From positions 1 through 60,102 of the forward strand of contig NZ_FXLV01000002.1 in assembly GCF_900180345.1 (NCBI RefSeq): a stretch of DNA of 60,102 bases, read 5' to 3'. Made by a program: the position numbers and the translations under genes. Shown one piece after another: positions 59,657-60,102 of the stretch. Positions within the stretch are counted from its first letter, which is position 1. Each line of letters begins with the position of its first letter. The notes below the pieces were generated by a model, which saw only the letters and a program-made list of their open reading frames with translations, did not search any database and was not told the origin of the DNA. The stretch comes from Bathymodiolus heckerae thiotrophic gill symbiont (GTDB taxonomy: Bacteria > Pseudomonadota > Gammaproteobacteria > PS1 > Pseudothioglobaceae).

Positions 59657-59835
59657 GAGGCCACTGCATTAATCCATTACAACTTATGAAATGCATAAAA
59701 TAGCACTTTTTTACCCAAAAACTATACAACAATCCTTGTAGGATAGTAAATAACTGGCTATTCTCCTCATTTTTGGATAAAAATGCACTATTTTTTTATA
59801 TTCTCTAAGTCGCACTGGGTTAATGCAGTGGTCTC
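59657..59835 (+). mobile_element. Second MITE-like element, 179 bp with long inverted ends
   Basis: The left end GAGGCCACTGCATTAATCC and the right end (reversed) GAGACCACTGCATTAACCC match at 17 of 19 bases. The similarity continues inward for about 60 bases (ACTTA..., AAATAG(C/T)..., TTTTTACCCAAAAA against TTTTTATCCAAAAA). No reading frame and no clear target duplication are seen. Only one copy lies in the window. The ends share GAGRCC with the 161-bp family but differ after that. Confidence 0.7.
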
Positions 59836-59882
59836 AAAGAGGGCAGTCTCAATTCAATGATTTTTGTTTTATTGCTTTTATA

Positions 59883-60043
59883 GAGACCTTTACATAAATA
59901 TGAATAATCATCAAAAATCCACTTTTCACCCGCTTGGCGATTTTTTAAACCCAGCCTTAGCCCTGCTAGGACAAGGTTTAATAAAATCACCAATCTGGCA
60001 AAAATTGAATTTTGCTAATCATCCCTATTTATGCAAAGGTTTC
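59883..60043 (+). mobile_element. 161-bp MITE, copy 6
   Basis: Same element with a base change in each terminal repeat (CTTTACATAAATA on the left, GGTTTC on the right). The target duplication is TTATA on both sides. The right end may be off by one base. It lies 48 bases after the 179-bp element in the otherwise geneless stretch 59636-60102. Confidence 0.93.
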
Positions 60044-60102
60044 TTATAATCACATTTTTTTAAAAGAATTTGACTTTTTTTTAAAAAGTTTGACTTATGC
60101 AA
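60044..60102 (+). other. AT-rich end of window without a recognised gene
   Basis: After copy 6 the sequence is short runs of A and T with two TTTGACTT repeats. Nothing codes within the window. Confidence 0.5.

Follow-up and report, generated by a model that had tools for sequence, protein, structure and literature searches.

A palindromic MITE of a Bathymodiolus symbiont whose core has probably outlasted several sets of ends

Introduction

What is the long palindrome at positions 59657-59835 of this Bathymodiolus symbiont contig, and if it is mobile, what recognizes its ends? An initial annotation, made from the sequence alone, took it for a MITE-like element unrelated to the 161-bp family next to it. 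It is usually the ends that decide how a MITE is classified, namely as a shrunken insertion sequence (IS). The window, that is, the whole 60,102-nucleotide stretch of DNA that was analyzed, is contig C2 of G000 (hereafter the host genome), an assembly of 1.44 Mb and 119 contigs. The identification of 59657-59835 as a MITE is well supported. Our main reading, with a probability of roughly 0.87, is that it is a non-coding MITE of an end type that we call A, that its ends have been used in trans by an IS5-family transposase with duplication of 5 bp of target, and that across the bacterial family the ends around its core have been replaced, if the four sets found there are not one drifting lineage.

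Results

The stretch is a 179-bp imperfect palindrome in which 17 of the 19 terminal bases pair, as first annotated, with mismatches at positions 4 and 17. A repeat finder delimits arms of 44 nt each (59657-59700 and 59792-59835) that are 75% complementary, and in an opposite-strand blastn self-match the inverted likeness, at 76% identity, reaches some 65 bases in from the ends (the earlier figure was about 60). The long single-strand hairpin proposed for it also holds up, as the stretch folds far below its shuffles both as RNA (-56.7 kcal/mol, z -7.82, equalled by 0 of 200 shuffles) and as DNA (-30.5, z -6.98, equalled by none). The features are as follows, with the basis of each in parentheses.

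59657-59835, + strand: type-A MITE, 179 bp, imperfect palindrome end to end (sequence, repeat finder, blastn, fold)
59657-59676, + strand: left terminal inverted repeat GAGGCCACTGCATTAATCCA (sequence; matched in other copies)
59816-59835, - strand: right terminal inverted repeat GAGACCACTGCATTAACCCA, read on the - strand (sequence; end-pattern search)
59678-59816, + strand: core common to relatives with other end types (covariance-model match, blastn)
59724-59747, limits approximate, + strand: additional inner stretch that holds a small hairpin, ATCCTTGTAGGAT (alignment of cores)
59883-60043, + strand: neighboring MITE of the 161-bp family (type D), with related ends, separate from the type-A element (sequence, copy comparison)

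The inner stretch at 59724-59747 amounts to about 20 bases more than most relatives have, and the copies in the host genome share it.

The element proved real at these positions, and the search for further copies proposed with the initial annotation found them in the host genome and in relatives, in place of the solitary structured element that was the alternative. By blastn, the host genome has eight both-ended type-A copies (on C2, C25, C13, C38, C53, C4, C43, and C6), a ninth at C52 that is interrupted by a 161-bp element, and truncated copies at C66 and C5; with a 28-bp fused-end remnant found by end-pattern search at C1:21397-21424, the total is about a dozen. The other copies are 91-97% identical to the one in the window, and no plasmid match to the element was found in 72,556 records. 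It is dispersed (the eight both-ended copies and the interrupted one), short and without a transposase gene (179 bp, with an open frame that has no coding signal), and bounded by terminal inverted repeats (17/19 here, and two ends that match in every one of the 67 loci scorable for both).

Target-site duplication, the remaining mark of a MITE, is found at the level of the family: of the 34 type-A copies that could be scored at both ends, 9 are flanked by exact 5-bp duplications, when 1000 re-pairings give 0.8 on average and never more than 4. The window copy, flanked by GATCA and AAAGA, has none, and in the host genome an exact 5-bp duplication flanks only one of the eight type-A copies, compared with 19 of the 20 distinct 161-bp copies among those listed. 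Simple age explains this poorly, because the type-A copies are still 91-97% identical to the window copy; the 161-bp copies of the same genome keep their duplications. The single local duplication, together with the finding of transposase fragments only (below), counts against recent activity here, and most type-A copies in the host genome are probably no longer moving.

Insertion events can also be read from nesting. On C25 a type-A copy lies within a 161-bp-family element, after its base 53, with AACTT on each side; on C52 a 161-bp element lies within a type-A copy, with ACAAC on each side; and on C6 a small RAGACCCCTGCATTAR-ended element lies within another 161-bp copy, again after base 53 and at AACTT. 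This common insertion point at base 53 is the strongest pointer to a transposase, or a target preference, shared by the type-A element and the RAGACCCCTGCATTAR element. The surroundings of the hairpin were first described as a stretch that seems to collect insertions: the three nested pairs lend this some substance elsewhere in the genome, but at this place there is only adjacency, the 161-bp copy at 59883-60043 lying 47 bases (48 by the earlier count) from the hairpin, with its own TTATA duplication at 59878-59882 and 60044-60048. The element is absent from G003, the closest relative with the neighboring gene (87%), where the alignment ends 11 bases before the element; an empty site for the window copy was not found there, since the alignment does not extend into the G003 sequence on the right of the gene, and the right flank is unmatched. 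In the C6:451-1180 region of the host genome (L078) and at C52 (L076), broken IS5-type transposase genes lie beside or within MITE copies, including one IS remnant inside a 161-bp copy and one type-A copy inside a transposase fragment.

Which transposase might have used the type-A ends? A relative, G011, carries an intact 1303-bp IS5-family IS with ends AAGACCCCTGCATTAA and an open frame of 341 codons, whose transposase matches NCBIfam NF033581 at 181.9 bits (cut-off 140) and whose three copies read all have 5-bp duplications. Type-A ends agree with this IS at 14 of 16 bases, and at 13 of 16 with both the 161-bp family and a 1243-bp IS of G007. The G011 IS is like the type-A MITE in its terminal bases and duplication length; unlike the MITE it encodes a transposase, and by eye no likeness of the two was noticed inside the ends. 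The initial annotation had proposed looking for an insertion sequence with the same ends, and this was answered in part: no IS with exactly type-A ends occurs in those of the listed places that were read, where the nearest has 14/16. NF033581 has 10 matches in the host genome, all of them fragments and none over the cut-off. Three of these begin at base 2 of a contig, so that intact transposase copies may have been lost in assembly gaps. The window contig itself ends at 60102, 59 bases past the 161-bp copy; this end and the three fragments at base 2 indicate that repeats probably broke the assembly. From these sequence matches, the mover of the type-A MITE would be an IS5-family transposase. 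The outer 16-20 bases are its putative binding and cleavage site, on which an NF033581-like enzyme would act in trans, duplicating 5 bp of target.

Type D, the 161-bp family, is bounded by ends GAGACCTTTGCATAAA and occupies at least 40 places in the host genome, including 59883-60043. It was originally described as sharing only GAGRCC with the ends of the hairpin, which is an understatement, as the two end consensuses agree at 13 of the first 16 bases. "Unrelated" is right for the interior and wrong for the ends, both families making 5-bp duplications as well, and no 161-bp copy is among the 43 own-genome matches of the 179-bp query. Type D is thus palindromic like type A, with similar ends, but its interior is unrelated, it keeps its duplication, and there is an IS with its ends, the 1243-bp element that is intact in G007. 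The type D neighbor is a possible user of a related transposase.

In several relatives the blastn matches ended about 17 to 22 bases before the termini, and other terminal repeats stood there. A covariance model of the core found a core of about 120 bp in 26 of 83 family genomes and 4 of 11 genera, and a 28-base piece of it has one named exact match, a contig from the Bathymodiolus brooksi thiotrophic gill symbiont. We read and end-typed 110 loci (10 own and two further sets of 40 and 60). Both ends were recognized within 4 errors in 67, the other 43 not being scored for pairing, and all 67 have two ends of one type, with 0 mixed: 34 of type A, 22 of C, 10 of B, and a single locus of F. The consensus ends are GAGACCACTGCATTAA (A), GRGACTGTTGAATATTGA (B), GGGCACCTCCAAAAACCC (C), and GGAGYGTCTGACATAA (F), and any two of them agree at 5 to 8 of 16 bases. 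Type C copies have exact 4-bp duplications in 16 of 22 cases (control mean 2.2, maximum 7). Type B copies have 5-bp duplications within one mismatch in 9 of 10 (control mean 2.1, maximum 6), and exact ones in 3 of 10, a count that the control, with a maximum of 4, also reaches. One B-like IS was found, in G022 (L337), without a clear duplication. Type-C-like ends with at most two mismatches were looked for in three genomes, and the regions read had no transposase beside such ends; G005 gave 0 matches, its own type-C copy exceeding that limit.

Did one set of ends drift into the others, or were the ends replaced? If the MITE lineage and its transposases had co-evolved, with ends drifting faster than the core, the types would be products of gradual divergence. 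Shared traces are consistent with this: A and F have an ATAACCC-like inner stretch, and A and C have CCCA...TGGG beside the core. End types also cluster on the core tree, with 7 changes (minimum possible 3, shuffled mean 32), and a single-group constraint is unrejected for C (p-AU 0.497) and A (p-AU 0.107). Against gradual divergence, the ends agree at only 5-8 of 16 bases although the closest cross-type core pair has an identity of 0.933; the duplication lengths differ, 5 bp for A and B and 4 bp for C; two types coexist in each of five genomes (G002, G007, G024, G096, and G098); and intermediate ends are absent from the 67 scorable copies. Forcing B into one group costs 22.8 log-likelihood units and is marginally rejected (p-AU 0.047), on a tree of 75 cores and 120 columns that is weakly resolved and includes 8 rows typed from one end only. 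Core identity averages 0.899 between copies that share both type and genome. The mean is 0.831 for pairs of unlike type within a genome, 0.792 for pairs of like type from two genomes, and 0.786 for pairs that differ in both respects. Drift is an unlikely account of the whole pattern, if one that keeps some real weight.

It is likely that the ends were replaced several times during evolution. Four end sets require at least three replacements, provided that the sets are unrelated and not one drifting lineage, and more than three are suggested. An old palindromic MITE would have been moved by IS5-type transposases and then re-ended several times. The fuller form of this model, in which a palindromic core outlives its ends and complete matched repeats are swapped several times, between 5-bp and 4-bp duplication systems, with each new end copied from arm to arm, we hold at somewhat better than even odds. 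The model starts from what was directly observed: the copies, their matched repeats, the 5-bp duplications of the family, the nesting, the 14/16 IS, the cross-type homology of cores, and paired changes in the arms.

The paired changes are found in individual copies. The outer 30-base arms of the 34 type-A copies agree at a median of 23 bases. In the C43 copy they agree at 28, compared with 23-26 in the other seven host copies, and the right arm bears left-arm bases; in L136 (G029) they agree at 29; in L281 (G085) both arms have the same derived first 20 bases; and in L320 (G022) a shortened, altered end, CACTCATCAACCCA, is present on both. These paired changes in four copies are what arm-to-arm copying predicts. 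A new end would arise on one arm and be copied to the other by snap-back replication or palindrome repair, and the same process may account for joint changes of ends up to whole new end sets. The arms also covary, with 43 cells changed on both sides and no more than 15 when the partners are slid (score 0.094 vs at most 0.056), counted on 32 insert-free cores (L115, L118, and L312 of 35 omitted) over a structure folded from L116. Further pair types were not above shuffles, 133 of 500 of which reach the count, and when the inserts were kept in the alignment, RNAalifold predicted next to no structure (energy -0.52). Arm-to-arm copying would fit the covariation, and so would selection acting on the hairpin.

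Some copies carry small hairpin inserts, about 10-30 bases long (for example CACAGCAGTCCTCTAGGAGGG, CGGCTTCGCC, and CCCCTCAAGGGG), at points of the core that differ between copies: L112, L114, L115, and L118 in G002, and L129, L131, and L133 in G022. The inserts may themselves be tiny mobile palindromes.

In five genomes, which belong to two genera, a degenerate core copy immediately precedes the start of one and the same gene (L285, L304, and L326 in genus g2; L300 and L314 in genus g1). It lies behind the same terminator-like hairpin and has partly lost its right arm. Judged by the encoded peptides, the gene after it resembles gyrB or parE, and the gene preceding that one resembles groEL. 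This copy is possibly a co-opted old insertion. Its ends, where readable (genus g2), are of type A, and for this reason type A may be the oldest.

Could the hairpin be a structured RNA or regulatory element, kept for the genome's own use and repeated by another route? The strong fold, the covarying arms (43 cells vs at most 15), and the degenerate copy before one gene in two genera would all suit such a role. We nevertheless consider it improbable, as terminal repeats, duplications, and nesting are what a mobile element shows, part of the right arm is gone from the old copies, and arm-to-arm copying predicts covariation too; the further pair types at shuffle level (133/500) and a structure taken from one sequence in the set also weaken the case. 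The Rfam matches in the window are RNase P and a tRNA. None falls at 59657-59835, and a known RNA family was rejected.

Three 28-bp remnants without a core exist, one in the host genome (C1:21397-21424) and two from G007 (1102603-1102630, and L237 1185-1212), and these raise the reading that the core itself is the mobile unit and that tiny MITEs, of types A, B, C, and F, served as its hosts. In all three, however, the two type-A ends are joined at CACTG. The full element has this 5-base sequence as a direct repeat close to each end, and a slippage deletion would leave just such a junction, when an empty host should measure about 40 bp; and the junction of core and end has inverted matches but no direct ones. 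A mobile core is therefore very improbable, and the shared CACTG junction in the host genome and G007 suggests recurrent slippage deletion of the hairpin.

A small protein gene in the frame MKHIKQHLFHPKTRQIAGYSPHFWVKNALFS... was rejected for want of a codon-position signal and deserves hardly any credence: the frame is stop-free across the core in 60% of 75 copies, but there is no third-position rise (entropies 0.503, 0.549, and 0.468), 26% of consensus shuffles are also fully open, and the host-genome copies among those listed stop at codon 6.

Discussion

The ends of this lineage look exchangeable and the core lasting, so that classing by ends would split one lineage into several. If this is true, a non-autonomous element that has lost its transposase could survive by turning to a different one. 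The copies also offer a natural series in which to study how one arm of a palindrome comes to be copied onto the other.

In open-licence papers, searched by titles and abstract openings, no description of the element was found in the literature on MITEs of Bathymodiolus or SUP05-like symbionts. Bacterial IS-derived MITEs are reviewed in PMC10969869 and PMC2229807, and type A resembles the elements described there in being short, AT-rich, non-coding, and dispersed, with terminal repeats, target duplications, and a hairpin. Unlike the MITEs outlined there, the type-A lineage combines a conserved core with four terminal repeat sets and two duplication lengths. In the titles and abstract openings of open-licence papers no match was found for MITEs with changed ends, the closest statement being that on QMITE1 of Coxiella burnetii, which is described as having variable ends and a conserved core (PMC5896051). 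By that description alone, QMITE1 resembles the type-A lineage in both respects.
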